From Gemmatimonadales bacterium (GTDB lineage: Bacteria > Gemmatimonadota > Gemmatimonadetes > Gemmatimonadales > GWC2-71-9), in assembly GCA_011772755.1 (NCBI GenBank), contig WVYX01000207.1, positions 8,018 through 47,430 on the forward strand: DNA of 39,413 bases. The letters are read 5' to 3'. Below are positions 22,428 through 37,943 of this stretch, in pieces. Position 1 is the stretch's first letter. Every line of letters starts with the position of its first letter. The notes beneath the pieces are model-generated. The model searched no databases, was not told where the DNA came from, and saw nothing but the letters and a program-made list of their open reading frames with translations. A program made the translations under genes and the position numbers.

Positions 22428-24893
22428 ATGACCGACCAACCCCGGGGCCAGTCCGTCACGGATAGCGGGATCGAGGTACGCGCCGAAGGACCACCGTACC
22501 TTGTGGCGGCACTCGTGTCCGTCGCGGTGCTGGCGCTCTACGTCGCAACGATTGCGCCGAGCACCCAATTCTGGGACACCTCCGAGTACATCGCGGCCGC
22601 CAAGGTGCTGGGTATACCTCATCCCCCCGGGAATCCCCTGTTCGTGATCCTGGCGCGCGTGTGGGGAGAAATCCCCATGGTGGCCCACTACGCCCTCCGC
22701 ATAAACCTGCTGTCTGCGGTGGCCAGCGCTCTCGCCTCCGGGTTTCTCTTTCTGGTGGCCGAGCGGTTCTTGCGAGAGATCGTTCCCCATCCGCGCTGGG
22801 CGCGGCTGAGCGCAGCTTTCGGCGGTGTCCTGGTGGGCGCTACCTCGTTCACCGTATGGAACCAGTCGGTGGTGAATGAGAAGGTCTACACGCTGAGCTT
22901 GTTGTCCATCGCCCTGGTGCTGTGGCTAGTGGTTCACTGGGGAGACCAACCAGCCGGTGAGCGGCGAGATCACTGGTTGTTGCTCATCGTGTATCTAGTG
23001 GCGCTCAGCGCGACGAATCACTTGATGGGTCTCCTGGCGATCCCGGCACTCCTGATCTACGCGGAAGCTGCGGAGGCCGAGGACAACCTCTGGGAGCGCT
23101 TGTTCGGTGCGGCCGGGCTCCTTGGGGCTGCCGGAGTCGCCGGGTACCTGGGGCTCCGCTGGTGGGACGATCACGCAGCTACTGCCTATCTGGTCCTATC
23201 CGTCCTCCTCTTCGCCGGCACACTGTGGCTGGGGTTCCGTCTTCATGCGAGCCAACTCGTGCGGATGGGTCTGGCACTGGCCAGCGCAGGAGTCGCCCTG
23301 CTGTTCGCCGTTGGAGCGTGGCCCGATCGCCAGCCCCTGCCAATGTTGGCCGCCATGCTGCTGCTAGCCCTACTCCTCACGTTCGCATTCCGCTCGGGCA
23401 ACGGAAGGCCCGTCTTGATGGCTCTCGGGGTCGTCGCGGTGGGTGTGAGCGTGTGGGCCGTCTTGCCGATCCGGGCTAGTCACTTCCCGGCGATCAATGA
23501 AGGCGAGCCCACCACACTCGATGCCTTCCTGGCCGTGCTGAGCAGGGAGCAGTACCAGAAGGGGCCTTTGATTCCACGACAGGCCGAGTTGTTGTGGCAG
23601 TACGCGAACTACATCCAGTACTTCACGTGGCAGTTCGCCAACGACTGGGGACTCCGGGCCCGCGACCTGCTGGCACTGTTGTTCGCCGGGCTGGGGATCG
23701 CCGGCGCAGTTCGACACTGGCAGCGGGACCGGCGCGGGGCGCTGGCAATGACGGCACTGATGGTGACCGTCACCTTGCTGCTCGTCTTCTATCTCGACTT
23801 CAAGTACGGCTATTCCGTTCGGCCGGGCGAGAATCTCCTGCGGGAAGTACGCGAGCGCGACTACTTCTTCATTGCGTCGTTCCAGCTTTGGGGCATCTGG
23901 GTGGCCCTCGGACTAGGCACCATCCTGGAGGCCGCGGCGCGGGCACTCCCCAAGCGGATCCATGTCACCCGCCGCTGGGCCTTGTGCGCACCACTCCTCC
24001 TCATCGCTCTCATACCGTTCTGGGGCAACCGCCTGACGGCATCGCGCGCCGACGAGATGTTCCCCAGAGACTTCGCCTGGGACCTCCTCCAGTCGGTTGA
24101 GCCGTACGCGATTCTCATCACCGCAGGTGACAACGACCAGTTCCCTTTGTGGTACATGCAGGAGGTCGAAGGCGTGCGGCGCGACATACTCGTTGCCAAC
24201 ACGTCGCTGATGAACACGCTGTGGCACACTCGGCAGCTCAAGCGCCGCGAGATCTTCCCCTTCGACTCGGCCAACGCGATCCCGTTGTACCGGGATCGCA
24301 CATGGCCGCGACCCACGGAACCGCCCCTGAGCCTGAGTTACGAACAGATCAACGCGCTGCCAGCCCTGCAGCGGACGCCGGAAGGAAGGCTCTTCAACAT
24401 CGGTGGGCTGCGCGTGGCGTTGCCGGAAGTGCTCGAGCGTCAACAGATCGTCACGCTCTGGCTGATCCGCGAGAACCTGGGGAAACGACCCATCTACTTT
24501 TCCCACACCGCCGGTGGGCAGCCTGACGTTCTGGGACTCACTCCGTATCTGCTGGGTCAGGGGCTGGTGCGAAAGCTCATGTCGGACACTATCGAGGCGC
24601 AGGACGGAATCGTCGCCATGCGTGGGTTGGGGTGGGTCGATACGGAACGGAGCAAGACTTTGCTGTTCGATCTCTACCATGCAGAGAGCGCGGCACGCGA
24701 GCGTCCCCGTGGGTGGGTGGACGAGCCGTCCCAGGGCGTTCTTTCGCTATACGCTCTCCTCTACGCCAGTATGGGAGAGCATCTCGCGCTGCAGGCGCTC
24801 ACGTCAACGGTGACGGCAGCAGACACCCTCAACGCCGCCAAGGCCTCACAGCTGGCTGAGCGGATGTTCCGACAGACGAGCGTCTATAGGTGA
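22428..24893 (+). CDS. DUF2723 multi-pass membrane protein (glycosyltransferase-like)
   Basis: An 821-aa inner-membrane protein. After a short cytoplasmic tail come about 10-12 hydrophobic segments and then a soluble C-terminal part from about residue 540. The N-terminal signature FWDTSEYIAAAKVLGIPHPP (48-67), with GNPLFV after it, is the hallmark of DUF2723. This family includes human TMEM260 and resembles PMT-type, lipid-sugar-dependent glycosyltransferases. The acidic residues after the first helix are where such enzymes place their catalytic Asp/Glu. The soluble part contains ITAGDNDQFPLWYMQEVEGV, a conserved block of bacterial members. O-mannosylation of exported proteins is the likely role by analogy; the substrate is not known. 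Confidence 0.9.
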   Translation: MTDQPRGQSVTDSGIEVRAEGPPYLVAALVSVAVLALYVATIAPSTQFWDTSEYIAAAKVLGIPHPPGNPLFVILARVWGEIPMVAHYALRINLLSAVASALASGFLFLVAERFLREIVPHPRWARLSAAFGGVLVGATSFTVWNQSVVNEKVYTLSLLSIALVLWLVVHWGDQPAGERRDHWLLLIVYLVALSATNHLMGLLAIPALLIYAEAAEAEDNLWERLFGAAGLLGAAGVAGYLGLRWWDDHAATAYLVLSVLLFAGTLWLGFRLHASQLVRMGLALASAGVALLFAVGAWPDRQPLPMLAAMLLLALLLTFAFRSGNGRPVLMALGVVAVGVSVWAVLPIRASHFPAINEGEPTTLDAFLAVLSREQYQKGPLIPRQAELLWQYANYIQYFTWQFANDWGLRARDLLALLFAGLGIAGAVRHWQRDRRGALAMTALMVTVTLLLVFYLDFKYGYSVRPGENLLREVRERDYFFIASFQLWGIWVALGLGTILEAAARALPKRIHVTRRWALCAPLLLIALIPFWGNRLTASRADEMFPRDFAWDLLQSVEPYAILITAGDNDQFPLWYMQEVEGVRRDILVANTSLMNTLWHTRQLKRREIFPFDSANAIPLYRDRTWPRPTEPPLSLSYEQINALPALQRTPEGRLFNIGGLRVALPEVLERQQIVTLWLIRENLGKRPIYFSHTAGGQPDVLGLTPYLLGQGLVRKLMSDTIEAQDGIVAMRGLGWVDTERSKTLLFDLYHAESAARERPRGWVDEPSQGVLSLYALLYASMGEHLALQALTSTVTAADTLNAAKASQLAERMFRQTSVYR

Positions 24894-24990
24894 GAATTCT
24901 GCAGCTCGCAATTCGCAGTTCGCAATCCGAGGCGGGCCCTTGCGGCCGCCGAGCGGCAAACGCGTTGCGAATTGCTAATTGCCAATCTCC
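24894..24990. repeat. AATTCGC-type inverted repeat between convergent genes
   Basis: Arm 1 (about 24894-24927: GAATTCTGCAGCTCGCAATT, then CGCAGTTCGCAATC) and arm 2 (24962-24987: GCGTTGCGAATTGCTAATTG, then CCAATC) are mutually inverted. The GC-rich middle, GGCGGGCCCTTGCGGCCGCC, is itself nearly symmetric. It starts at the DUF2723 stop and extends into the last codons of the convergent TonB receptor gene. A structure on both transcripts is possible, so it might serve as a bidirectional 3' end. Confidence 0.7.
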
Positions 24991-27089
24991 ACCCCTACCA
25001 CAAGGCTCCGCCCCGGAGCCGGCTCGAAGAACCTTCCGCCCCGGGCATTGACCACGACTGATCCGGCGTACCGCTGGTCGAACACATTGAGGACGCTGAC
25101 GAAGGGCGCGATACGCCAGTTGCGCACTCCACCTTCCCAGCCGACTCGCACACTGGTCACGAGCCATTCCGCAGCTTCGGTAGTATTGGCATCGTCCACG
25201 TAGAACGACGACGTGTAGGTGTTGTCCACCGCCGCCCAGACACCGCCGAAACCGTCGGCCCGTACGGACCAGTGCAAGCGGTGACGGGGAATGCCGGGAA
25301 TCTCATTCCCATCAAACGTGTCGTCCGTGGTTCGGAACTCCTCGAATCGATAGTCGGCATAGGTGTAGGCAACGATGGCGGCGACGCCAGCAGGCAAGCG
25401 CACCTCCGCGAACGCCTCGAGGCCTCGACGGCGCGCTGAGCCCGCGTTGCGGAAGTACTGCCGGCCCGGCTCGGTGACGGACTCGAACGGTATGAGGGCG
25501 TCCCGCACGTCCACTTGAAAGGCCGCCACCGAGTACCGCAGCCTCCCGTCCGGCGGGCGCCCCCGGAAGCCGACTTCGTATTGCACGGCACGCTGGGGTG
25601 CGAGATCCAGATTGAGACCGCCACCGCCCTCGGGGCGGTTGACCAGTTCCGTCGTCGTCGGTGTCTCGAAGGTGGTGCTCACGCTGGCGTAGGGAACGAA
25701 GGCGGGTGTGAGGCCGGCCGTGATGCCGCCGGATGCAGACACCGCGTCCAGGACCCGATCGCCCGATTGATCGCCGTTCGACAGCAGCCGGTCGTCCACC
25801 ACGAGGCTCACGCGGTCATAGCGCGCCCCAGCGGTGAGGAAAAGCCGGGAGCCCAGCGCCACTACACCCCGGACAAACGGCCCGATCTCGGCCACGCGCT
25901 CGAACTGATCCAGCGTCGTCTGGGTCCCATCGAGCGAGCGGTTGAGCCGATCGTCCCGCTGCCACTGGGCGTCCACTCCCAGCGTGACGACGGGCACAGT
26001 AGGGAGCCCGCTCAGCGGCAGCGTCGTACTCGCCCGCACGCCGTAAGTCCACCGATCCAAGTCGATGGTGGCGAACGGCAGTGGCTCCTCCAGATCCCGC
26101 CGCAGCCCGAACACGGCTACATCGACAGCCCCTCCCTGGGGCAGCTCATGCCTCAGGGCCATTCCGCCCTGAACCTGTGTGACCATCTCGCGGGCGCCCG
26201 TCGCAACGTTCCGGGGAGCTGCCTGAATAGGCAGGGTATCCATCTCGGTCTGGGTCAGTGCACCGGGGTTCAGCGCCTCCGGGCGGTGCGCCACGTGACC
26301 CACCACTGTGAGGCGCGTGCGTGGTGACACTGGCTGTGCGACGCGGAAACTGAAGCGGCGCAGGTCAGCCGAGCTGTGCTCGCGGTGGCCGTCGGTGGTC
26401 GTCCACGAGGCCACCGCCCGGGCGGAGCCGGCACCCATCGGCGCGGCGACGCTAACCAGGCCCTTGCGGAACTTGTGCGCTCCGGCCGTCAACCGCACCG
26501 TCGACTGCAGGTTGGCTGGCCGCTGACTACCGGTGGTCACACTAATCACCCCGCCAGATGCGTTGCCGTACAGGCTCGATGACGCACCCCTCCAGATCTC
26601 GATGCGTTCCACATCGCCCAGCTCCAGGTTGGTGAGCTGCCCCTGCCCGTCGGGTAGCGTTTGAGGGATGCCGTCGAGGAGTATCTTGACCCCGCGAACG
26701 CCGAATGCGGAGCGAGCGCCGAACCCACGGACCGCGATCCGCTGATCCAACGCGTAGTTGTACCGGTTCGCCACCACCACTCCCGGAATGATGGCCAAAG
26801 CCTCATCCAAGCCATCGGTTGCGCGACCCCGACGCAGTTCCCGCTGATCGATGCTCGAGATGGAGTAGGGCAGCGCGGCCAGGGCGGCCTCGGTGCGAGT
26901 CACCGTGACAGTGACCGGGTCCAGAACGGCCCGGGGAAGCGAGTCCTTAGTCGTCGAATCGCGGGCAGGTCGCTGTGCCGCCGCCGCTGCGGGCATTGCG
27001 AACCACAGGAGGAAGGCGGTCACGACCCGGCCCCACCGGGACACGAAGGGCGGTAGAGGACGGGAGTGCCGCCAGTCAGCCTCGCTCAT
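24975..27089 (-). CDS. TonB-dependent outer-membrane receptor
   Basis: 704 aa from ATG 27089 (a TTG three codons earlier is less likely). The signal peptide is near residues 20-40 (VVTAFLLWFAMPAAAAAQ). The plug domain has VTVTVTRTEAALAALPYSIS, GVVVANRYNYALDQRIAVRG, ILLDGIPQTLPDGQGQLTN and ERIEIWRGASSSLYGNASGG. The rest is a 22-strand-type barrel with FFEPAPGRSLVVGVEIGN at the end. Siderophore or ferric-complex uptake is typical for this plug form, but the ligand is not shown. The C-terminus is odd: receptors of this class normally end in an aromatic residue, here the last codons and stop are repeat sequence. It is transcribed toward the DUF2723 gene. Confidence 0.92.
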   Translation of the reverse strand: MSEADWRHSRPLPPFVSRWGRVVTAFLLWFAMPAAAAAQRPARDSTTKDSLPRAVLDPVTVTVTRTEAALAALPYSISSIDQRELRRGRATDGLDEALAIIPGVVVANRYNYALDQRIAVRGFGARSAFGVRGVKILLDGIPQTLPDGQGQLTNLELGDVERIEIWRGASSSLYGNASGGVISVTTGSQRPANLQSTVRLTAGAHKFRKGLVSVAAPMGAGSARAVASWTTTDGHREHSSADLRRFSFRVAQPVSPRTRLTVVGHVAHRPEALNPGALTQTEMDTLPIQAAPRNVATGAREMVTQVQGGMALRHELPQGGAVDVAVFGLRRDLEEPLPFATIDLDRWTYGVRASTTLPLSGLPTVPVVTLGVDAQWQRDDRLNRSLDGTQTTLDQFERVAEIGPFVRGVVALGSRLFLTAGARYDRVSLVVDDRLLSNGDQSGDRVLDAVSASGGITAGLTPAFVPYASVSTTFETPTTTELVNRPEGGGGLNLDLAPQRAVQYEVGFRGRPPDGRLRYSVAAFQVDVRDALIPFESVTEPGRQYFRNAGSARRRGLEAFAEVRLPAGVAAIVAYTYADYRFEEFRTTDDTFDGNEIPGIPRHRLHWSVRADGFGGVWAAVDNTYTSSFYVDDANTTEAAEWLVTSVRVGWEGGVRNWRIAPFVSVLNVFDQRYAGSVVVNARGGRFFEPAPGRSLVVGVEIGN

Positions 27090-27299
27090 AGTACCCAAAC
27101 CTAGTGGAAGGTATCCGGAGTTCCGCTAGTGGCAGGCCGAATCCCCCGGTTTCCCCTTCTGCCAGCCTCTACCGCCCTCCTGCCGCCCCTGCCGCCCCCT
27201 CCCGCTCGCAGTTCCCTCCTTGCCCCGCACCGCTTAGGACCGTAGCCTAGTCAGAGTCCGCACGAGGGGTCACGAAGGGCGCCGGCGAACAATCCACTG
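27090..27299. other. Divergent gap with GGCAG-type repeat (complement strand)
   Basis: 210 bp between the TonB receptor and the first kinase. 27156-27220 read on the minus strand is GGGGGCGGCAGGGGCGGCAG with flanking GGGCGG words, a copy of the same family found after selA and purH. Both genes need a promoter here, yet I find no clear -35/-10 pair. No Shine-Dalgarno precedes the kinase ATG. Confidence 0.5.
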
Positions 27300-30131
27300 A
27301 TGCCATCCATACTCTATCGTCTGTGCGAAGCCCTCCTGCCTGACTACGAGGTCGAGCGCGAGCTGGCGACGGGGGGCATGGGCACGGTGTTTCTAGCCCG
27401 GGACGTGGCGCTCGATCGCATGGTCGCCGTCAAGATCGTGCGCCCGGAGCTGGCGACGGCCGATGCCACTGAGCGGTTTCTCAACGAAGCCCGCGTCCTC
27501 GCCAACCTCAACCACCCCAACGTCGTTCCGGTCCACCGCGCGGGAGAAGCCGGCGGGCTTTCCTACTACGTGATGGATTATGTCGAGGGAGAGACGCTGC
27601 AAGACCGCCTGCAGCAGGGCCCCCTCTCAGCGCAGGAAGTATTGAAGCTCGGGCGCGACTTGCTGGACGCCCTGGAGGCGGTGCACGGCCTCGGAATCGT
27701 TCACCGGGACATCAAGCCGAGCAACATCTTTCTCATACGTGGCCGGGCCCTCCTCGCCGACTTCGGCATCTCGCGCTCGTCGGGACCGCAAACCTCCTCC
27801 GACTCGGGCGTCGTCCGTGTGAGGGGCACACCGGGCTACATGCCGCCGGAACAGGCATTCGGCTGGAGCCTGACGCCGCGCACCGATATCTACGCCACCG
27901 CCATGGTGTTGTACGAGGCTCTGACCGGTCGCCACTGGGAGGCGCTGCACCCGGACCAGCACGGCGATTGGTCCGGTGTGCCGGGGAGCATGGCACGGAT
28001 CCTCCGGCGGGCGTTGGCTTGGGAGCCCGCTGATCGCTGGCCCGATGCAAGGACATTCCGCCGAGCACTGTGGAAGACTCGCACCCGGAAGTACAGGCGT
28101 CGGACCCTCCTGCTCACTGTGTCGGGGCTGATCGTCGGCGCGTTCGTGGCGCAGTTCCTGTTCGCTCCGGGGGGCACTCCACCGGCTGATCTGGCTGTTC
28201 TGCCGTTCAAGGTGGAGGGCGACCTAGACAGCACCGTGGGAGTGGACCTCGCCGTGGCCACACAAGCGAGTATCAGCCTAACGGACCTCGTGCCGCTTCC
28301 CTTCACCACGGACATCCAACCGGACGATGCGATACGTGGCACGCCGGCACAGCTCCTCGAGCAGCTCAACGCACGCTTCTATGTGGACGCAACAGTAAGC
28401 CGAGAGCAGAACGAGCTGGTGGTCAAGCTGCGGGTCTTCGAGTCGGACGGCCCTCCGCTGGAGGCCGGTGAAGTGCGCGGGGGGATGACGGATGAAGGGG
28501 ATCTGGGCTGTCAGCTGGGGCTGGAGGTCGTGCGCTTCATCGATCCCAATCGCCTCGACCAGTACCGCTGCATCCTCAGCGGAACCGAAGCCCAGGCGGT
28601 GAGCGCATGGCTCGATGGCGAGAGGGCGTTTCGGAGCCAGGACTGGCGAGCTGCCGCGGGCCACTTTGAGCAGGCACTGTCCCTGGATTCCAGCTTCGCC
28701 CTGGCGAAGTGGCGTTTGTTTGTCGCTAGTCGGTGGCTGCGAATCCACTCCTTCTGGCGAGATCTGGAACAGCTCTACACCGAGCAGCGCCATCAGTTGG
28801 GGGAAATCGACAGGATGCTCCTCGACGCCTGGCGAACGCCGCTGGGGCACGAGCAGTTCGCCAAGTACGAGAAGGCGGTGACGAAGTATCATCGCGATCC
28901 TTACGCCTGGCTGCTCTACGGTGCCGACCTGCACCACCGCGGCCCCCTCGTGGGCATTCCACTCGATAGCGCTGCCGCGGTGCTCTTGGCAGCCACGCAG
29001 CGGGATTCCTCCCTGGGCCCCGCCTACATGCAGCTCTCGTGGGCGTTGATCCAACTGGGTCGGCGAGAGGAGGCGCGCCAGGCCGTTGACCGACTGTTAG
29101 CCATAGCAGGGCCCGAAGCCATCGTGGACCCGGTGGACCCGCGCGTCTTCCTGTGGGCCTACTTCGAGCGGTTCGCCCCCGACACTGCGTTGGCAGCACG
29201 CGCACAATTCGTCGGCGGTGGCACCTGGACGGAGACGCAGGAGGAGATCTCCACGAAGGCCGTGGGTTGGGCATCATCATTCAACCTGGCTCCGACTCAG
29301 GCTGAAGTCGCGGCTGCTTTGATGGAGCTGCCTGCCGTGCCGGATTCGCACCGGGCTAACGCCCACCAGAGGCTCGCCCTGGCCCTCTTCGCATTGGGAC
29401 GCCTCTCAGAAGCGTTCACGCATTTCGACTCCGCAGCAGCCATCTATGGCACCAGAGAAGTCGAGTTGCAGTCCGCCCAGTGGCGTGTGCTGCCGGGCGC
29501 GTTTGGCATGCAAGGTGTGGACACAGGGGAGGTCTCCAGAGGTCGAGCCCTGTTGGAGGCATTCGCGGAAAGCTCAGACCTGGGGTTGCGCGCGGCCTGG
29601 ACGCTCGCCCTCGAAGCCGATGCGAGAAACGACCCGGTGGCGGCCAACAGGTGGTGGGCACGCGTGCGTCAGAGATCAGGTGACGCGGCACGGGATTTCG
29701 GACTGTTTCTCGAAGCGGTAAACGCCGCGAGACTCGGAGACCACTCGCGAGCGGTTGCCCTATCGGAACCGCTGGTGCCATACGACGCGGAGGCCGCGGG
29801 TCAGACCGATCCGTTCTTTCGTGCCGGCATCTACCTCAAGCGCGGCGAATGGCGAACTGAGTCAGGGGATCGAGACGCGGATGAGGAGTGGCTGTGGTAC
29901 CAAAACACCGACCTGATTGGATGGCCGTCTGGCGCGCTCCACGCGGGAGAGGTCGACTGGGCGTTCGGAACCTACGCCCGGTTCCTCCGGGGACGCGCTG
30001 CACTGGAGCGGCGCGACAGGGCCGGCTGTGAGAATCTCGATCGCGTCCGTGAGCTGTGGGTCAACGCCGATCCCGGGCTGCAGCCCCTGGTCGACCAGGC
30101 CCGCCAGCACCATTCCCGGAGCTGCCGGTGA
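27300..30131 (+). CDS. Membrane Ser/Thr protein kinase with C-terminal TPR region
   Basis: A 943-aa PknB-type kinase. The kinase domain is at about 16-260, with a GGMGTVFLA loop, K45 in VAVKIV, HRDIKPSN (D137), ADFGISR (D154) and YMPPEQA (PPE in place of APE). All catalytic residues are present. A membrane helix follows at 269-288 (TLLLTVSGLIVGAFVAQFLF). Outside it lies a module beginning LAVLPFKVEGD, then TPR-like helices from about 440 (GERAFRSQDWRAAAGHFEQA) to the end. The kinase faces the cytoplasm and the TPR part probably the periplasm. It overlaps the following regulator gene by 4 nt (GTGA), so the two proteins are probably made together. Confidence 0.93.
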   Translation: MPSILYRLCEALLPDYEVERELATGGMGTVFLARDVALDRMVAVKIVRPELATADATERFLNEARVLANLNHPNVVPVHRAGEAGGLSYYVMDYVEGETLQDRLQQGPLSAQEVLKLGRDLLDALEAVHGLGIVHRDIKPSNIFLIRGRALLADFGISRSSGPQTSSDSGVVRVRGTPGYMPPEQAFGWSLTPRTDIYATAMVLYEALTGRHWEALHPDQHGDWSGVPGSMARILRRALAWEPADRWPDARTFRRALWKTRTRKYRRRTLLLTVSGLIVGAFVAQFLFAPGGTPPADLAVLPFKVEGDLDSTVGVDLAVATQASISLTDLVPLPFTTDIQPDDAIRGTPAQLLEQLNARFYVDATVSREQNELVVKLRVFESDGPPLEAGEVRGGMTDEGDLGCQLGLEVVRFIDPNRLDQYRCILSGTEAQAVSAWLDGERAFRSQDWRAAAGHFEQALSLDSSFALAKWRLFVASRWLRIHSFWRDLEQLYTEQRHQLGEIDRMLLDAWRTPLGHEQFAKYEKAVTKYHRDPYAWLLYGADLHHRGPLVGIPLDSAAAVLLAATQRDSSLGPAYMQLSWALIQLGRREEARQAVDRLLAIAGPEAIVDPVDPRVFLWAYFERFAPDTALAARAQFVGGGTWTETQEEISTKAVGWASSFNLAPTQAEVAAALMELPAVPDSHRANAHQRLALALFALGRLSEAFTHFDSAAAIYGTREVELQSAQWRVLPGAFGMQGVDTGEVSRGRALLEAFAESSDLGLRAAWTLALEADARNDPVAANRWWARVRQRSGDAARDFGLFLEAVNAARLGDHSRAVALSEPLVPYDAEAAGQTDPFFRAGIYLKRGEWRTESGDRDADEEWLWYQNTDLIGWPSGALHAGEVDWAFGTYARFLRGRAALERRDRAGCENLDRVRELWVNADPGLQPLVDQARQHHSRSCR

Positions 30132-32026
30132 TCTCGTGCCGCACGCTGGGCCCGGTGGAGGTGACGATCGACGGCGGCGCACCTCCGCCGGAGCTCCTGT
30201 GGCGTAAGAACCTGGCGCTCCTCGTTTACCTCGCCCGCTCACCGAAACGCACCCGCACCCGTGACCATCTCATCGGACTGCTCTGGGCCGACAAACCCGA
30301 GTCGTCGGCGAGGCACTCCCTGCGAGAGGCTATCCGCGTCCTGCGCCGCATCGTGGGGGAAGAGCAACTCCAGACAGAGCACGGTCAGGTGCGGCTGGCT
30401 AACGATGCCGTGCGACTCGACACCGACGAATTCCTCAGCCTTGAGAGTGCTGGGGATTGGAGCAAGGCGGCTTCCCTGATCGGCGGTGAGTTCCTCGAAG
30501 GGTTCAGCGTGCCTGACGCGTCAACCTTTGAGGATTGGCTCGCCGCCGAGCGCCTCGCGTGGCGGCGGCGTGCGGCGAGCGCGTTCGTGCAGCAAGCCGA
30601 AGAGTTCCTGCGCCGTGGCAGCATCCGCGAAGCGGCGGACGCTGCCCTCCGGGCGCTGGATCTGGAAGCCAGCTCGGACGCCGGGATTCGGGCTGCCATG
30701 AAGGCCCTGGCACTAGCCGGTGATCGAGCCGGAGCGCTCACCAGCTACGAGGAGTTTCTCACCCGGCTGGAGCAACTGGGCACCGCGCCTGATCCAGAGA
30801 CCAAGGAACTCGCCCAGCGGGTGCGGCGGGAGCGGGAGTGGCGACTTCCCGATGAAGTACCGGTGGATGCCGCGCGCGGGGCAGAATCGCGCCGGGCTCC
30901 TCTGGTTGGCCGCGAGGCAGAACTGGAGCGGCTGCTCCGTGTGTTCCAGGACTGCGTGCAGCAGCGCCGCGCCGCCGCCTGTGTGATCGAAGGGGATTCC
31001 GGACTGGGGAAGTCACGGCTGGCGGAAGAGCTGCTGGGCCGCGCGCGGCTGGATGGTGCTGCGGCAGCAACGGTGCGGGCGGTGGAGGCAGACCTGCAAG
31101 CTCCGTTGAGTGGCATCCTCGGCTTTGCCAGAGGGGGATTGCTGGAGGCGCCAGGCTTAGCTGCTGCGGCCCCACCTGCGCTCGCCGCGTTCGCTGCGGA
31201 GGTCCCTGAGTGGGCCGATCGGTTCGGCAGAGGCAGGGCAACTCCATCGCCACTCACCGGCGCGCTCAGTGAGGCGCTCCGGGCGATCACTGAGGAGCAG
31301 CCTGTGCTGCTGCTCGCCGACAACGCCCAGTGGCTCGACCGTGACTCCCTGCTGGCGCTGCTCGCGGCGGCGCGGGATCTTGCCGAGTCCTCACTGCTCC
31401 TCGTGTTCACTACACAACCGGAGCCCTCCCGCCCCGAGCTGGATGATCTCCGCTCCCGGATCGGCCGCGACACGGCCGGAACCACGGTGGTGTTGCAGCC
31501 ACTGGCCACCGCCGCGCTGCGACAGCTCGCTCGGTGGGCCGTCCCCACGTACACGGACGCAGAGGTCGACCGCCTGGCCCGCCGGCTGGCTGTCGACTCG
31601 GCCGGCGTGCCTCTCCTCGCAGTGGAGCTGCTTCACGCGGTGGCGCTGGGACTGGATCTGGGCACCATCACCGGCGCCTGGCCCGAGCCGTTCAAGACGT
31701 TGGACCAAACCCTCCCAGGCGAGCTGCCGGACGCCGTCGTCGCCGCCATACGCGTGGGCTTCCGCCGCCTCACCGGAAAAGCGCAGCAGGTGCTCGCGGC
31801 CGCCGCCGTGCTTGGGGACCGGGTGGAGGTCGGGCGCCTGGAACGCTGCACCGGCCAGAGCGGTGACCGGCTATTCTCCGCTCTGGACGAGCTCGAGTGG
31901 CAGCGGTGGCTCACGGCGGACCCCCGGGGCTATTCGTTCGTCGCCCGGATCGTGCGCGACGTGGTGGAGCGTGACATGCTGACCGCGGGGCAGCGGCAGC
32001 GGATACTCGATGCCGACCTCGGCTGA
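30128..32026 (+). CDS. BTAD-type transcriptional regulator fused to AAA/STAND ATPase
   Basis: 632 aa from GTG 30128, which overlaps the kinase stop and has CGGAGC upstream; the frame is open back to 30056 inside kinase coding. Residues 3-100 form an OmpR-like winged helix (CRTLGPVEVTIDGG, LAYLARS-like helix, SARHSLREAIRVLRRIVG). Residues about 100-235 form a BTAD domain (LLGEFLEGF-like GGEFLEGFSVPDASTFEDWL, then TPR helices). An AAA_16-type ATPase begins at VGREAEL (260-266), with Walker A GDSGLGKS (289-296) and Walker B-like VLLLADNAQWLD (393-404). The protein ends soon after the ATPase helical part and lacks the long TPR tail common in SARP/LAL regulators. It probably controls transcription in response to a signal; target genes are unknown. 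Confidence 0.88.
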   Translation: MISCRTLGPVEVTIDGGAPPPELLWRKNLALLVYLARSPKRTRTRDHLIGLLWADKPESSARHSLREAIRVLRRIVGEEQLQTEHGQVRLANDAVRLDTDEFLSLESAGDWSKAASLIGGEFLEGFSVPDASTFEDWLAAERLAWRRRAASAFVQQAEEFLRRGSIREAADAALRALDLEASSDAGIRAAMKALALAGDRAGALTSYEEFLTRLEQLGTAPDPETKELAQRVRREREWRLPDEVPVDAARGAESRRAPLVGREAELERLLRVFQDCVQQRRAAACVIEGDSGLGKSRLAEELLGRARLDGAAAATVRAVEADLQAPLSGILGFARGGLLEAPGLAAAAPPALAAFAAEVPEWADRFGRGRATPSPLTGALSEALRAITEEQPVLLLADNAQWLDRDSLLALLAAARDLAESSLLLVFTTQPEPSRPELDDLRSRIGRDTAGTTVVLQPLATAALRQLARWAVPTYTDAEVDRLARRLAVDSAGVPLLAVELLHAVALGLDLGTITGAWPEPFKTLDQTLPGELPDAVVAAIRVGFRRLTGKAQQVLAAAAVLGDRVEVGRLERCTGQSGDRLFSALDELEWQRWLTADPRGYSFVARIVRDVVERDMLTAGQRQRILDADLG

Positions 32027-32096
32027 GGCCCCACTGCCGCTTGCTGTCAGCACACCCCTCACGCATCTTGAGTCCGGAAGCGCGGTGACGTGAGGA

Positions 32097-35000
32097 ATGG
32101 TCACTCCAACCTCTACCTGTCCCAAGTGTCAGACCCTACTGCCCGACGGGGCTAGCTTCTGCCCCGGGTGCGGCATTCCCACACCCCCCGGCGGCTATCG
32201 GAAGCCCCAAGACGTCGTAACGCGCCGGCTCGCCGAGGGTGAGACCGAGTTCGCGCAGCTCAAGGGAGCGCTCGCCGATCGCTACGTGATCGAGCGGGAG
32301 ATCGGTCGCGGCGGCATGGCGACGGTCTACCTCGCCCAGGATCTCAAGCACCATCGGAAGGTGGCGGTCAAGGTCCTCCAGGCCGAAATCTCATCATTGA
32401 TCGGTAACGAACGGTTCCTGCGGGAGATCGAGATCACTGCTCAACTCCAGCACCCCCACATCCTGCCGGTGCACGATTCCGGGGAAGCCGCCGGATTTCT
32501 CTACTACGTCATGCCGTTCGTGGAGGGAGAGTCGCTGCGGGATCGCCTCAGCCGTGACAAGCGGCTGAGCCTCGAGGATGCGCTGCAGATCGTTCGGGAG
32601 GTGGCACACGCCCTGAGCTACGCCCACTCCCGCGACGTGGTGCACCGAGACATCAAACCCGAGAACATCCTCCTCTCGGCCGGGCACGCGCAGGTCGCAG
32701 ACTTTGGTATCGCTCGAGCGATCAGCGCAGCGGGGACCTCAACTCTGACCCAGACCGGTGCGGTGATCGGCACACCGGCCTATATGGCGCCGGAGCAGGC
32801 CGTCAGTGCTCCCGACGTCGACGGGCGAGCCGATCTGTACGCACTGGCGGCAGTGGCCTGCGAGACGTTGACCGGGACACGCACCGATACGCTGAGCGAC
32901 AGTGAGGCAGCCGAACAGGCGCTGCTCTCGGCAAGGCCTGACATCAAGCCTTCCCTGGCCCATGCTCTGACTGCGCCCCTTGCCCTGGACCGGGACCGGC
33001 GGCCGGCGTCGGTGGACGACTGGCTGGATTCGCTCAAGGCGCCCGAAAGGCGGCTGCCGTCCGTGACCATGCTCGTCACAGCGGCGGTCACCGTGGCGTT
33101 TCTGGTAGCCATAGTAGGCTGGTGGATCTTGGGAAGCCGTCCGGCAAGCGCGCCAACGACTCCGACCATTGCGGTGCTGCCGTTCTCGGTCACAGGCGAA
33201 GTTGAGGGGATCGACCTTGCCAGCGCGTTGCCGCAGGCGTTCCACGACCAGCTGCAGTGGCTGCCAGAGCACAGCGTATTGAGTCCGGAGCGCGTGCGCA
33301 GCGCGATCGTCGACAACTTCGGGACCATCCCCGAGGTCGACACGGCCACCAGCTTTCTCGCTAGCAGGTTCTCGGCCTCGGAGGTGTTGTGGGGCACTGC
33401 CCAGGTGACGCCCGCCGGCGAGCTCCGGTTGTCGGTTCAGGTGCGGGAGGGAGTCACGCAGCGCATCGTGCGGAGCGCGGACACCACAGGCATGCTGGAC
33501 AGCCTTCACGCGTTGGTCAGCGGGATTGTGGTCGAGGCCTTCGCCGAGCACGTGGTGGGCGAGCGCGCTGGGTGGAGCCCGGCACTTCCCCGGGGAATGC
33601 AGGCGATCAACGCCTACTACGCAGGAGAGCAGCACTTCCGACGCGGCGACTACAGCGAGGCGATCCGCCGTCTTGACGAGGTGATCGAGCGAGACTCGAC
33701 CTACGCGCCCGCCTATTTCAAGCGCATGCTCGCGGTGATCCTCCGCACGCAGCCGACGCGGGCTGGGACGGCGATCCGCGATGCCCTGGACGCGGCACGC
33801 CGGTACAAAGACGGCCTCGACCCGACCACCCAGGAACTGCTGGAGGGGTACGAAGTCCTGGTGAGCAGAGGAGACGTCCGGGGAGGTCAGGAGGCGTTCC
33901 GCAGCGTTGTGGACCAGCATCCGGATGCCGTCGATGCCCGCTTCATCCTTGGCTATCTGAAGGTCAACTTCCCAGCATTGATCGGAACCACGCCCACAGC
34001 GGCCCGCCTGGATTTCGAGCAGGTGTACCAACGCGACCCCCTCTTTGCCGCTGCCATCGCACAGCTCGCCCGGACCGCCATCCTTCTGGAGAATCGGGAC
34101 GACGCGCAGCGGTACATCGGCGAGTACGTGGCCCTCGACAGCACGTCGGAGTGGGCGGAGCTGTTGCGATTGGCCGACACGCTGGTGTTCGGGAGTGATC
34201 GGCAGCGGGCAAGTGCCGTTGGCTCCCTCGACGACCGCCCGTCCATCGTGCTGGAGATGATCGGCCTGACTGCCGGAGAGTTTCACCAACCGGGTCAGAA
34301 CCGCATCGTCGCACACGAGGCGATCAGTACGCTGTGGGAGCGTGCTGCCACGGACTTTGAGCGGCGCGTGGCGTTCCGCATGCAGATGGCGAGTCTCCTG
34401 GGCACCGGCCAATCGGCGTCGGCGGAAAGGCTCATGCTCGACGCCCGACGGCGTGGCGTCCCGCGGCAGGAGCTAGACCACTGGACGGTGTTGGCATCCG
34501 TGACGGGTGTCGCCACGCTGGGAGACCCTGAGACAGCTGCTGGCCGCTTGCTCGCGCCAGCTGCCGACAGCGCGACGGCGTGGTGGCTGGCCGCGCGCTG
34601 GTATCGAGCCCGCGATCCACGCGCCGCCACTGATGCCGTGGAGAAGCTGAGTTCCTGGATCGCCGCCACCGACAGACCGTCACCCCTGGCTCTCAGCCTG
34701 CGTGATGACCTCGACGCCGTTGAATTGGCCGTGGCCGGCGATGCGGCCGGCGCGATCGAGAAGTGGCGGGAGGCAACCCAGCGTTACAGCATCGAAGAAG
34801 TCCTGTTCGGCCTGGTCGGCTCGCTCTGGCCGCTGCGCCTGGAGTGGGCCCGAGTCGCAGCCGCGTCAGGCGAGTACGAAGAGGTGATCCTCGCTACGGA
34901 GCCGTTTGCCCAGATGGCCGGCTTCGTGGATCAGGCCGCCTGGCCGGAGGTATGGCTGCTTCGCGCCGACGCCTACGAAGCCACCGGTGATGCGATCGCG

Positions 35001-35102
35001 GCCCAAGAGATCAGGGAAGAGCTCGTAGGCGTTCTGAGTGAGGCCAACGGAGAGGGTGCAGTCCTGCGGGATTCCCTGGCGAACTTACTCCCGGGCGGGT
35101 AG
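32097..35102 (+). CDS. Membrane Ser/Thr protein kinase with N-terminal zinc ribbon and TPR tail
   Basis: 1001 aa. A double-CxxC zinc ribbon opens the protein (C8, C11, C22, C25: CPKCQTLLPDGASFCPGCG). The PknB-like kinase domain is at 63-315: GRGGMATVYLA, K92 in VAVKVL, HRDIKPEN (D185), ADFGIAR (D202), YMAPEQA. A membrane helix lies at about 324-345. After it come TIAVLPFSVTGEVEG, a module like that in the upstream kinase, and TPR-like repeats from about residue 500 (YYAGEQHFRRGDYSEAIRRL). All kinase motifs are intact. The start ATG is directly preceded by TGAGGA. It is the third gene of the cassette, 70 nt after the regulator. Confidence 0.94.
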   Translation: MVTPTSTCPKCQTLLPDGASFCPGCGIPTPPGGYRKPQDVVTRRLAEGETEFAQLKGALADRYVIEREIGRGGMATVYLAQDLKHHRKVAVKVLQAEISSLIGNERFLREIEITAQLQHPHILPVHDSGEAAGFLYYVMPFVEGESLRDRLSRDKRLSLEDALQIVREVAHALSYAHSRDVVHRDIKPENILLSAGHAQVADFGIARAISAAGTSTLTQTGAVIGTPAYMAPEQAVSAPDVDGRADLYALAAVACETLTGTRTDTLSDSEAAEQALLSARPDIKPSLAHALTAPLALDRDRRPASVDDWLDSLKAPERRLPSVTMLVTAAVTVAFLVAIVGWWILGSRPASAPTTPTIAVLPFSVTGEVEGIDLASALPQAFHDQLQWLPEHSVLSPERVRSAIVDNFGTIPEVDTATSFLASRFSASEVLWGTAQVTPAGELRLSVQVREGVTQRIVRSADTTGMLDSLHALVSGIVVEAFAEHVVGERAGWSPALPRGMQAINAYYAGEQHFRRGDYSEAIRRLDEVIERDSTYAPAYFKRMLAVILRTQPTRAGTAIRDALDAARRYKDGLDPTTQELLEGYEVLVSRGDVRGGQEAFRSVVDQHPDAVDARFILGYLKVNFPALIGTTPTAARLDFEQVYQRDPLFAAAIAQLARTAILLENRDDAQRYIGEYVALDSTSEWAELLRLADTLVFGSDRQRASAVGSLDDRPSIVLEMIGLTAGEFHQPGQNRIVAHEAISTLWERAATDFERRVAFRMQMASLLGTGQSASAERLMLDARRRGVPRQELDHWTVLASVTGVATLGDPETAAGRLLAPAADSATAWWLAARWYRARDPRAATDAVEKLSSWIAATDRPSPLALSLRDDLDAVELAVAGDAAGAIEKWREATQRYSIEEVLFGLVGSLWPLRLEWARVAAASGEYEEVILATEPFAQMAGFVDQAAWPEVWLLRADAYEATGDAIAAQEIREELVGVLSEANGEGAVLRDSLANLLPGG

Positions 35103-35158: not shown

Positions 35159-35240
35159 GTCCCAGCAATCCGTCAGGCCAATGGCGGTCGATGCACGTCC
35201 CCGCACCGCCCCACCCAACCACGGAAGGGGATGTAAGGCG

Positions 35241-37943
35241 ATGAAGTCTTCGGCGCAGTTCATCGCACTCATAGCGCTGTGTGGGGCCTTCGCCTCCCCC
35301 GGCATCGCGCAGCAGGCTTCCCTGCTCGGCTCGGTGCGAGACTCGATTTCCCGCGAGCCGCTGGAAGGAGTGCAGATCGAGCTTCTTGCCAGGGGTACGG
35401 CAGTCGCTGCTGCCGTTACCGGCCGTGATGGAACGTTCACACTCACGGAGCTGGCACCCGGTCTTTACACCTTAGTGGCACGCCGCGTCGACTACCGGGC
35501 CCACCGGGTTGACGATCTGGAGATCGCCGTCGGCGAATCGCTGGTCATCGTCATCACCCTGAAACCCCACGCCATCACCATCAACCCGATCGTCGTCAGT
35601 GCTTCGCGAACGGAGCAGAAGGCCCTCGACGCCCCGGCCTCGGTTTCGGTAGTAGACGCGCAACAGATCGCGGACCGCACGGCGCTAACGGCCATCGACC
35701 ACGTGCACGGCGTTCCCGCCGTCGACATTGCGACCACCGGACTCACGCAGCACGAGGTCGTCGTCCGGGGATTCAGCAACGTGGCCTCGGGGGCATTACT
35801 TGCCCTGGCGGACAATCGGTACATCTCGGTCCCCTCACTGCGGATCAACGTCTATAACTTCATCCCGACGGCCAATGAAGACGTGGAGCGGATCGAAGTC
35901 GTGCGGGGCCCCGGTTCCGCGCTGTACGGCCCGAACAGCGCCAACGGGGTGCTCCATATCATCTCCCGCTCGCCGTTCGACTCCCCGGGCGCGGTGGTGA
36001 CCCTGGCCGGAGGAGAGCGGTCCCTGTTCCAGGGCTCGATCCGGCACGCCTCCACCTTCGGCCGACGGTTCGGCCTCAAGGTGTCGGCCCAGTACCTCCG
36101 GGGAAGCGACTGGCAGTTCGACGATCCTGATGAGCAGTCCAACCGACTGGTCGCGATCGCCCAGGGGGCGGATGAGGACACGCTGCTCATCGGTCGGCGA
36201 GATCCCACCGTCGAGCGCCTGGCCGGTGAGGCACGGCTAGATTGGCGCTTGACACCGCAGACCTCGCTCGTGACGTCAGTCGGTGCCAACCTGGCCGCCC
36301 GCAATGTGGAGCTAACGCCCCTCGGCGCGGCGCAGGTGCGAGACTGGCGGTACACCTACCTTCAATCCCGACTACGGCACGGTCGGCTCTTTGCCCAAGC
36401 GTTCCTCAACCTGAGTGACGCGGGGGACACCTACCTGCTCCGCTCCGGGAACACGGTGACCGACAACTCCTTCATGGCGGTCGCACAGCTGCAGCACGGA
36501 ACACTGCTGGGAACCCGTGCGGATCTGATCTACGGTCTGGATCTGCAGCGCACTGTTCCCCGCACCGACAGCACGATCACCGGGCGCAACGAGGATGATG
36601 ACGCGATCAACGAGGCAGGAGCCTACGTTCACGGCGAGGTGACAATCAGCTCGGCGCTCCAGCTCGTCGCTGCTACACGGGTGGACTACCACAACCGCCT
36701 CGACGACCTGGTGTTCTCGCCGCGGGCGGCGCTGGTGTACCGAGCGGCACCGTCGCACACCTTGCGGCTCACCTACAACCGGGCGTTCAGCACGCCAACC
36801 ACCAACAACCTTTTCCTGGATCTGTTCGGCGACTCGGTGCGGGCGCCGACGGGTGAGGCCCTACCCTATGCCGTGCGCCTAGTGGGCGTGCCGCGGTCCG
36901 GATTCACCTTCCGGCGGGATTGCGGTGGCCTATGCATGCGCTCCCCGTTCACGCCGGACGACTTGGGTGGTCCCGGCACCTGGCTCCCGGTGGACGCCAC
37001 CCTGGTATGGCCCGCTGTGGTGCAACTCCTGGCGGCCCGTGGCATCGACATCGCTCCCATTCCGCAGCCCACGGCCGCCGACGTGGCCACGAATCTCGCG
37101 CTCATCAGCATCAGTGGCGGTTCCCCCGAGCCTGTGTCCGATGTCGCCAACCTTCCCGTGCTCAGACCTACGATCACGAACGCCGTGGAGTTGGGCTACA
37201 GGGCCGCCATCGGTGATCGGGTGACCCTCGCAGTCGATCTCTATCGCACCTGGAAGAACGACTTCGTTAGCGCCGAGCAGGTGGAGACACCGAACGCGTT
37301 CTTCGATCCGGTTACGCTGGCGGATTACCTGTCTCGCTACATGCCGCGGGACACGGCGTTGTTCCTTGCCGGTCTGATCGCGAGCGCGCCGATGGGCACC
37401 GTCACACCGGAGCAGGCGCGCGACCCCTGGGACATCCTCATCACCTATCGCAACTTCGGAAAGATCACGCAGTGGGGAGCCGACCTCGACGTCGCTGCGT
37501 TTCTCACCCCGTCCATAGCACTGCGGGGCACGTACTCCTGGACCAACCGGAACACGTTCGAGGTAGTGAACGCGTCGGGTAAGGTGGACACCATTCCCCT
37601 CAATGCACCCGCCAACCGGGGGTCGCTAGCGGGCATCTACCGGGATGAGCGTTTGGGGCTCAACGCGGAGGTGCGAGTCCGGGCGGTGGAGGGCTTCCCG
37701 GTCAGGTCCGGTGTGTATGAAGGCGACGTGGAGTCCTACGCAGTGATGGACGCGGCCGCAGGCTACCGCTTGCCGTTCAACCGGAGGCTGACCGTCACGT
37801 TGAGCGCGCAGAATCTCGTGACTGCCGTGCGGCGCACGGAGGACACGGTCAGTAGGTGGAAGTTCCGAGCGCACCACCAGGAGTTCATTGGCGCGCCCAT
37901 GATCGGGCGGCTGGTGACCGTGCGGGTGAGGGCGGAGTTCTAG
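35241..37943 (+). CDS. TonB-dependent receptor with carboxypeptidase-regulatory-like N-domain
   Basis: 900 aa from ATG 35241, which follows GGAAGGGGATGTAAGGCG; the frame open back to 35181 is ignored. Signal peptide SSAQFIALIALCGAFASPGIAQ. Residues about 26-105 are a CarboxypepD_reg-like domain (LLGSVRDSISREPLEGVQIE, FTLTELAPGLYTLVARRVDY). The plug domain has VVSASRTEQKALDAPASVSV, HEVVVRGFSN and ERIEVVRGPGSALYGPNSAN. The barrel ends VTVRVRAEF with the expected terminal Phe. A cysteine-bearing outer loop (FTFRRDCGGLCMRSPF) is visible. The ligand is unknown. It follows the kinase gene by 138 nt in the same direction, so it may be in that operon or separately controlled. Its stop overlaps the convergent VanZ-like gene by 4 nt. 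Confidence 0.93.
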   Translation: MKSSAQFIALIALCGAFASPGIAQQASLLGSVRDSISREPLEGVQIELLARGTAVAAAVTGRDGTFTLTELAPGLYTLVARRVDYRAHRVDDLEIAVGESLVIVITLKPHAITINPIVVSASRTEQKALDAPASVSVVDAQQIADRTALTAIDHVHGVPAVDIATTGLTQHEVVVRGFSNVASGALLALADNRYISVPSLRINVYNFIPTANEDVERIEVVRGPGSALYGPNSANGVLHIISRSPFDSPGAVVTLAGGERSLFQGSIRHASTFGRRFGLKVSAQYLRGSDWQFDDPDEQSNRLVAIAQGADEDTLLIGRRDPTVERLAGEARLDWRLTPQTSLVTSVGANLAARNVELTPLGAAQVRDWRYTYLQSRLRHGRLFAQAFLNLSDAGDTYLLRSGNTVTDNSFMAVAQLQHGTLLGTRADLIYGLDLQRTVPRTDSTITGRNEDDDAINEAGAYVHGEVTISSALQLVAATRVDYHNRLDDLVFSPRAALVYRAAPSHTLRLTYNRAFSTPTTNNLFLDLFGDSVRAPTGEALPYAVRLVGVPRSGFTFRRDCGGLCMRSPFTPDDLGGPGTWLPVDATLVWPAVVQLLAARGIDIAPIPQPTAADVATNLALISISGGSPEPVSDVANLPVLRPTITNAVELGYRAAIGDRVTLAVDLYRTWKNDFVSAEQVETPNAFFDPVTLADYLSRYMPRDTALFLAGLIASAPMGTVTPEQARDPWDILITYRNFGKITQWGADLDVAAFLTPSIALRGTYSWTNRNTFEVVNASGKVDTIPLNAPANRGSLAGIYRDERLGLNAEVRVRAVEGFPVRSGVYEGDVESYAVMDAAAGYRLPFNRRLTVTLSAQNLVTAVRRTEDTVSRWKFRAHHQEFIGAPMIGRLVTVRVRAEF

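Follow-up and report, generated by a model that had tools for sequence, protein, structure and literature searches.

Conserved pairing of a membrane Ser/Thr kinase with a tail-less SARP-type regulator in Gemmatimonadota

Here, we analysed a stretch of 39,413 nucleotides (nt) from a Gemmatimonadales bacterium (assembly GCA_011772755.1, contig WVYX01000207.1, positions 8,018 to 47,430 of the forward strand), referred to as the window. Our focus is on the DNA-binding ATPase REG and the membrane-bound Ser/Thr kinases K1 and K2 encoded on either side of it (Table 1). The host genome comprises 4.24 Mb in 351 contigs, gives 65 Pkinase matches (about 60 kinase genes) and also encodes PP2C phosphatases. 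K1, REG, K2 and the TonB-dependent receptor gene T2 are transcribed in the same direction with short gaps. The GTG start of REG lies inside the stop of K1, an overlap of exactly 4 nt (GTGA), and 70 nt separate REG from K2. This layout, two kinases bracketing a BTAD-AAA regulator, had been reported in a preliminary description of the window made from the sequence alone and is confirmed by the coordinates.

Table 1 Features of the window and of related loci (positions refer to the window unless a locus is given)
Feature	Position	Strand	Basis or remark
K1, membrane Ser/Thr kinase, 943 aa	27300..30131	+	Pfam Pkinase and TPR, catalytic residues, model
REG, tail-less SARP/STAND regulator, 632 aa	30128..32026	+	winged helix, BTAD, AAA_16 NTPase
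K2, second membrane Ser/Thr kinase with N-terminal zinc ribbon, 1001 aa	32097..35102	+	
T2, TonB-dependent receptor	35181..37943	+	possible target
T1, TonB-dependent receptor	24975..27098	-	divergent from K1, probably outside the unit
TMEM260-like protein O-mannosyltransferase homologue	22428-24893		in synteny with T1 and REG in L154
Partner kinases with Big_2 ectodomain	L160:5777-9286, L169:6728-9988		

Both kinases match Pkinase and TPR models of Pfam and carry the complete residue set of an active Hanks-type kinase (VAVK Lys, HRD Asp, DFG Asp and APE Glu). Their earlier description as catalytically intact holds at every position concerned (K, HRD, N, DFG and APE). In K1, the kinase domain (residues about 16-260) is followed by a transmembrane helix (about 270-288), an alpha/beta module starting with the motif AVLPF and a TPR superhelix. 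Since there is one transmembrane helix with positively charged residues ahead of it (RTRKYRRR), the kinase domain of K1 most likely faces the cytoplasm, with the AVLPF/TPR part in the periplasm. This outer domain was modelled with a predicted local distance difference test (pLDDT) score of 91, and a fold search with it returned generic TPR solenoids only, at low template modelling (TM) scores. Two cysteines, C910 and C942, are present in all 37 aligned K1 homologues with residues at these positions and possibly form a disulfide. K2 carries the zinc ribbon previously noticed on one of the kinases (Pfam, residues 8-27) and a single hydrophobic helix (about 323-341) ahead of its own AVLPF module. 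The two kinases had been said to share their outer modules. The AVLPF module indeed follows the helix in both, but in 11 of 32 kinase open reading frames examined in the host genome, a simple motif search found the kinase followed by this start or one much like it, so that it is generic there and creates no special link between K1 and K2. K2 is of a different kinase type, related to the kinases transcribed divergently from regulators of a sister clade.

REG is a member of the SARP family of the AfsR/EmbR type, in which an OmpR-type winged helix (Trans_reg_C, PF00486) is followed by BTAD (PF03704); behind these lies an AAA_16 NTPase with the Walker A motif GDSGLGKS. In its AlphaFold model (mean pLDDT 93), the DNA-binding half resembles AfsR and EmbR and the remainder STAND/AAA ATPases. 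When proteins of known structure were searched with a profile of the REG family, EmbR (1.4e-11) and AfsR (6.4e-10) were the only natural ones matched, the remaining matches being designed TPR proteins. REG ends after its ATPase, as already noted in the preliminary description: Pfam shows nothing beyond the ATPase region, and neither Pfam nor the model reveals a TPR there. Close homologues start at the GTG of the window and end just past the ATPase; the tail-less form is therefore a trait of the group and not a truncation. Most of the family shares this C-terminus, two outgroup paralogues being longer. The last Walker A residue, S296, is equivalent to T337 of AfsR and is Ser or Thr in 47/47 relatives. 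At the Walker A Lys position (residue 295), 39 of the 47 have Lys and 8 have Arg; the second Walker B acid (residue 399) is Asp in 42/47 and Asn in the REG of the window (D-N for D-D).

How widely is this gene arrangement conserved? A scan of the regulator alignment against 84,980 species genomes yielded 77 loci, all labelled as Gemmatimonadota or candidate lineages within this phylum, except two labelled 'bacterium'. Including the window, the survey comprises 83 regulator copies, 80 of them informative. The genomes are mostly metagenome-assembled with genes called from open reading frames, the loci were selected by similarity to REG, and the two survey sets overlap in species. A kinase gene adjoins the regulator in 72 of the 80 informative copies. 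In 49 of the 80, a K1-type kinase (or its outer domain alone at contig edges) lies directly upstream on the same strand, and 37 of these 49 pairs have the identical 4-nt overlap. Four more copies have a K1-type gene upstream with an intervening stretch, which is a broken frame in one case and a membrane-protein gene in three (about 220-250 aa, at about 9230-10000 in L155, L163 and L185; the L155 copy is without Pfam match). The nearby kinase, mostly of the K2 type, is transcribed divergently in 17 of the 80, and another kinase lies within 900 nt upstream in two. Eight copies are without kinase; among them, L211 and L219 have less than 1.7 kb of upstream DNA, and L150, from the same genus, has a scaffold gap (about 100 N) at the regulator start and is therefore uninformative on K1. 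The catalytic set is complete in all full-length neighbour kinases at the surveyed loci, with the exception of one pseudokinase.

As a control, loci of more distant, mostly longer BTAD-ATPase proteins were inspected, and 0 of 20 had a head-to-tail kinase. Recurrence of the same neighbour and overlap in other species, with none in the controls, thus indicates a linkage beyond chance. Among 395 Gemmatimonadota genomes, four families, all of one class, contain strong regulator matches (above about 500 bits), and most other families have none. The preliminary description, which had viewed the three genes as one cassette, had proposed such a neighbourhood survey and named homologues mostly without flanking kinases as the outcome speaking against it; this is not what the survey returned. 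Of the conserved three-gene order across genera that it had named as support, K1 and REG alone are widely retained, whereas K1>REG>K2 in one direction was seen in the window alone. The conserved unit is a two-gene K1-REG pair, not a three-gene cassette.

The reciprocal search, with the K1 outer domain in 101 relatives, gave 36 matches above 270 bits, followed by a drop to generic TPR kinases. Two of the matches run off contig ends, and 32 of the remaining 34 adjoin a regulator, so that the gene linkage expected of a cognate kinase-SARP pair was found from both sides. One exception, G050, has a K1-type outer domain without kinase in a genome without strong regulator match. In the other, G007 (L154), the block AICARFT-TMEM260-T1-REG-T2 is retained with K1 and K2 missing from it; another contig carries a K1 homologue of full length (48% identity) as well as a K2-type gene. 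K2-type outer domains are less tightly linked, with 9 of 14 strong matches beside a regulator (61 genomes, by coordinates). In a regulator tree (FastTree), a single change separates copies with head-to-tail K1 from copies with a divergent kinase. In one sub-clade within the K1 clade, the place of K1 is taken by a kinase that has a zinc ribbon and Big_2 Ig-like repeats. Further variants comprise L193 (7212-10001), where K1 is followed by a pseudokinase K1 copy that overlaps the regulator and has lost the DFG motif and exchanged the catalytic Lys for Met but kept the outer domain, and L167 (5972-9994), where a single K1-type chain containing two complete kinase domains is encoded directly upstream of the regulator. 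At L159, L171, L189 and L180, a K1-REG pair lies beside a divergent K2-REG2 pair, and the order K1>REG>K2 of the window would most readily be understood as a local version of these clusters.

Kinase-regulator pairs of this kind have been characterised before. In Mycobacterium tuberculosis, embR and pknH share one operon and PknH phosphorylates EmbR (PMC9239209), and in Streptomyces, AfsK phosphorylates the SARP-NOD regulator AfsR encoded in the same cluster (PMC10936776). The former statement that no characterised system is comparable was therefore too strong, and the 'phospho-relay' suggested with it does not agree with these precedents, in which Ser/Thr phosphorylation is direct. AfsK, which carries PQQ-type repeats (PMC1262709), targets the last Walker A residue of AfsR (T337) and other sites; the ATPase activity is raised and activation by ATP counteracted (PMC10936776). 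As in PknH-EmbR, the gene of a membrane Ser/Thr kinase is linked here to that of an OmpR-type winged-helix-BTAD regulator, and REG aligns with EmbR over residues 5-248. Unlike REG, however, EmbR has a C-terminal FHA domain and no NTPase, and the order in its operon is embR, then pknH. The outer domain of PknH is not a TPR domain. AfsR is the closest fold to REG and also matches it in sequence, but has a C-terminal TPR domain, and afsK lies apart from afsR, with two genes between them and without overlap. Lacking a TPR after the ATPase as well as any match to FHA or another known kinase-docking domain in the Pfam scan, REG is neither AfsR nor EmbR proper. K1 and K2 are likewise not AfsK proper: in the AfsK equivalog NF053615 only their kinase domain matches, with 82.8 and 84.6 bits, respectively, against a cut-off of 1300.

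In size, domains and the missing TPR tail, REG is like the medium SARPs CdaR, CpkO and FdmR1, which have about 600 aa, a SARP domain and an NTPase and are without TPR tail (PMC10972967). These three differ in being pathway-specific antibiotic regulators, and no dedicated kinase is described for them in the excerpts of the literature covered. Proteins of the PknK type and the TOMM kinase/cyclase TIGR03903 show the same coupling of a Ser/Thr kinase to an AAA_16/STAND ATPase, but within a single polypeptide. The host genome itself encodes a kinase-AAA_16 fusion (L005:1-3378, minus strand; G000:C252) in an open reading frame of more than 1,100 aa, with Pkinase at 44-327 and AAA_16 at 350-533; neither a SARP DNA-binding domain nor a TPR match was found in it.

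We consider it probable that K1 and REG form a cognate signalling pair, in which a periplasm-sensing kinase phosphorylates a DNA-binding NTPase; on the best reading, it would work like AfsK-AfsR and PknH-EmbR. K1 would sit in the inner membrane, its kinase domain facing the cytoplasm, and a periplasmic cue would alter its activity via the AVLPF and TPR domain. K1 would then phosphorylate REG in the cytoplasm, S296 being the first candidate site by homology with AfsR T337. Phosphorylation might reset a switch in the NTPase by which the winged-helix/BTAD domain is controlled at promoters, and an effect like that of AfsK on AfsR is the simplest hypothesis. K2 probably provides a further input, either to this regulator or to a sister of it. 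In favour of such pairing are the gene linkage from both sides, its absence from the control loci, the single change in the regulator tree, the Big_2 and pseudokinase variants, the constant Ser or Thr at the position of AfsR T337 and the PP2C phosphatases of the host genome. It would also be favoured by the fact that EmbR and AfsR, the sole natural solved relatives of REG by sequence, are both Ser/Thr kinase substrates.

Several observations weigh against this proposal. Phosphorylation of REG by K1 is suggested by analogy, and conservation of S296 is not diagnostic since a Walker A Ser/Thr is kept for nucleotide binding regardless of phosphorylation; the invariant Ser/Thr also occur in regulator copies without K1. 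REG lacks the FHA domain by which EmbR meets PknH. Phosphorylation of AfsR hardly alters transcription activation and counteracts ATP binding (PMC10936776), which makes the outcome for REG uncertain. With about 60 kinases in the host genome, others could act on REG, and the regulator copies L154, L162, L165, L172 and L198 are without an adjacent kinase. The correlation of the REG and K1 trees (r = 0.485 over 36 pairs; best of 2000 permutations 0.237) speaks for the pair, but this signal is confounded by species phylogeny and could be produced by it alone.

What else could explain the arrangement? Possibly, K1 and REG share an operon for co-expression only, with REG under ATP or protein-ligand control via its STAND module and K1 acting on other substrates. 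STAND regulators such as MalT do answer to small ligands, and the missing kinase-docking domain would fit; nevertheless, we regard this as rather unlikely given the near-exclusive reciprocal linkage, the persistence of the pairing when a different kinase substitutes as partner, and the kinase-AAA_16 fusion of the host genome, all of which point to direct coupling. Mere chance neighbourhood is conceivable in a genome with about 60 Pkinase genes in 4.2 Mb, but it is refuted by tens of species from several families that share this neighbour, its strand and the 4-nt overlap, leaving its probability practically negligible.

Very improbable, too, is the cassette of the preliminary description, in which the TPR sensor of the regulator has shifted onto two kinases to control the neighbouring TonB receptor. 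The co-directional genes with short gaps in the window speak for it, as do the order REG-K2-TonB in L150 and REG-TonB (gap 22 nt) in L154; however, its gene order was not met elsewhere, and homologues of the window receptors lie near REG in just 2 of 77 loci. A transfer of TPRs from regulator to kinase is not supported, in view of topology and the tail-less C-terminus throughout the family: the TPRs of the kinases are predicted to be periplasmic, on the opposite side of the membrane from a regulator tail, which would be cytoplasmic, and regulators of the same family are also paired with Big_2-ectodomain kinases.

K1-REG is thus best read as a dedicated Ser/Thr kinase/SARP pair, similar to a two-component system, whose sensor would be a TPR domain in the periplasm. 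Kinase-SARP logic as such is known from AfsK-AfsR and PknH-EmbR. What appears to be new is that, across a class of Gemmatimonadota, the two genes overlap and are paired almost exclusively with each other, as well as the periplasmic TPR sensor of the kinase, the NTPase regulator without tail, and the replacement of the sensor domain; the literature searched, with most subscription journals outside its coverage, contains no description of the pair in this phylum. More tentatively, and with confidence just short of even, we propose that Gemmatimonadota hold a dedicated Ser/Thr counterpart of two-component systems, in which each SARP/STAND regulator has its own overlapping kinase with swappable sensors (TPR, Big_2, double-kinase, pseudokinase) and which duplicated into K1-REG/K2-REG2 clusters. 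Bacterial genomes are generally said to hold few Ser/Thr kinases, with pleiotropic targets (PMC4601284). If true, our proposal would imply a clear one-kinase-one-regulator wiring in genomes with about 60 kinases, would extend the kinase-SARP logic of actinobacterial antibiotic and virulence control to a second setting, in a phylum that has been little studied, and would offer a testable sensor, a periplasmic TPR domain in which two cysteines are invariant.

Regarding the neighbouring genes, a TonB receptor as conserved target was rejected as a general rule. T2 remains a candidate target at the lineage level, given its place after REG or K2 in the window as well as in L150 and L154, the latter two being the nearest relatives and the only ones in which it stays downstream of REG. 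Synteny of T1 is retained in L154. No other neighbour family is widely conserved at the regulator loci, the largest occurring in 10 loci. The recurrence of genes for cupredoxin, VIT/VWA and ECF sigma proteins is limited to the surroundings of the divergent configuration (e.g. L126:6838-17850) and of some K1 loci. In three genomes, a kinase gene lies 366-634 nt downstream of a longer regulator paralogue (L110 (G000:C265), L104 and L105); the complete downstream kinases at these loci are short and have hardly any outer domain or none. A promoter scan gave no signal above shuffled sequences, and Rfam no match. The divergent promoter region between T1 and K1 contains two near-identical 11-nt direct repeats, CTAGTGGAAGG and CTAGTGGCAGG, 25 nt apart (window 27101-27136).
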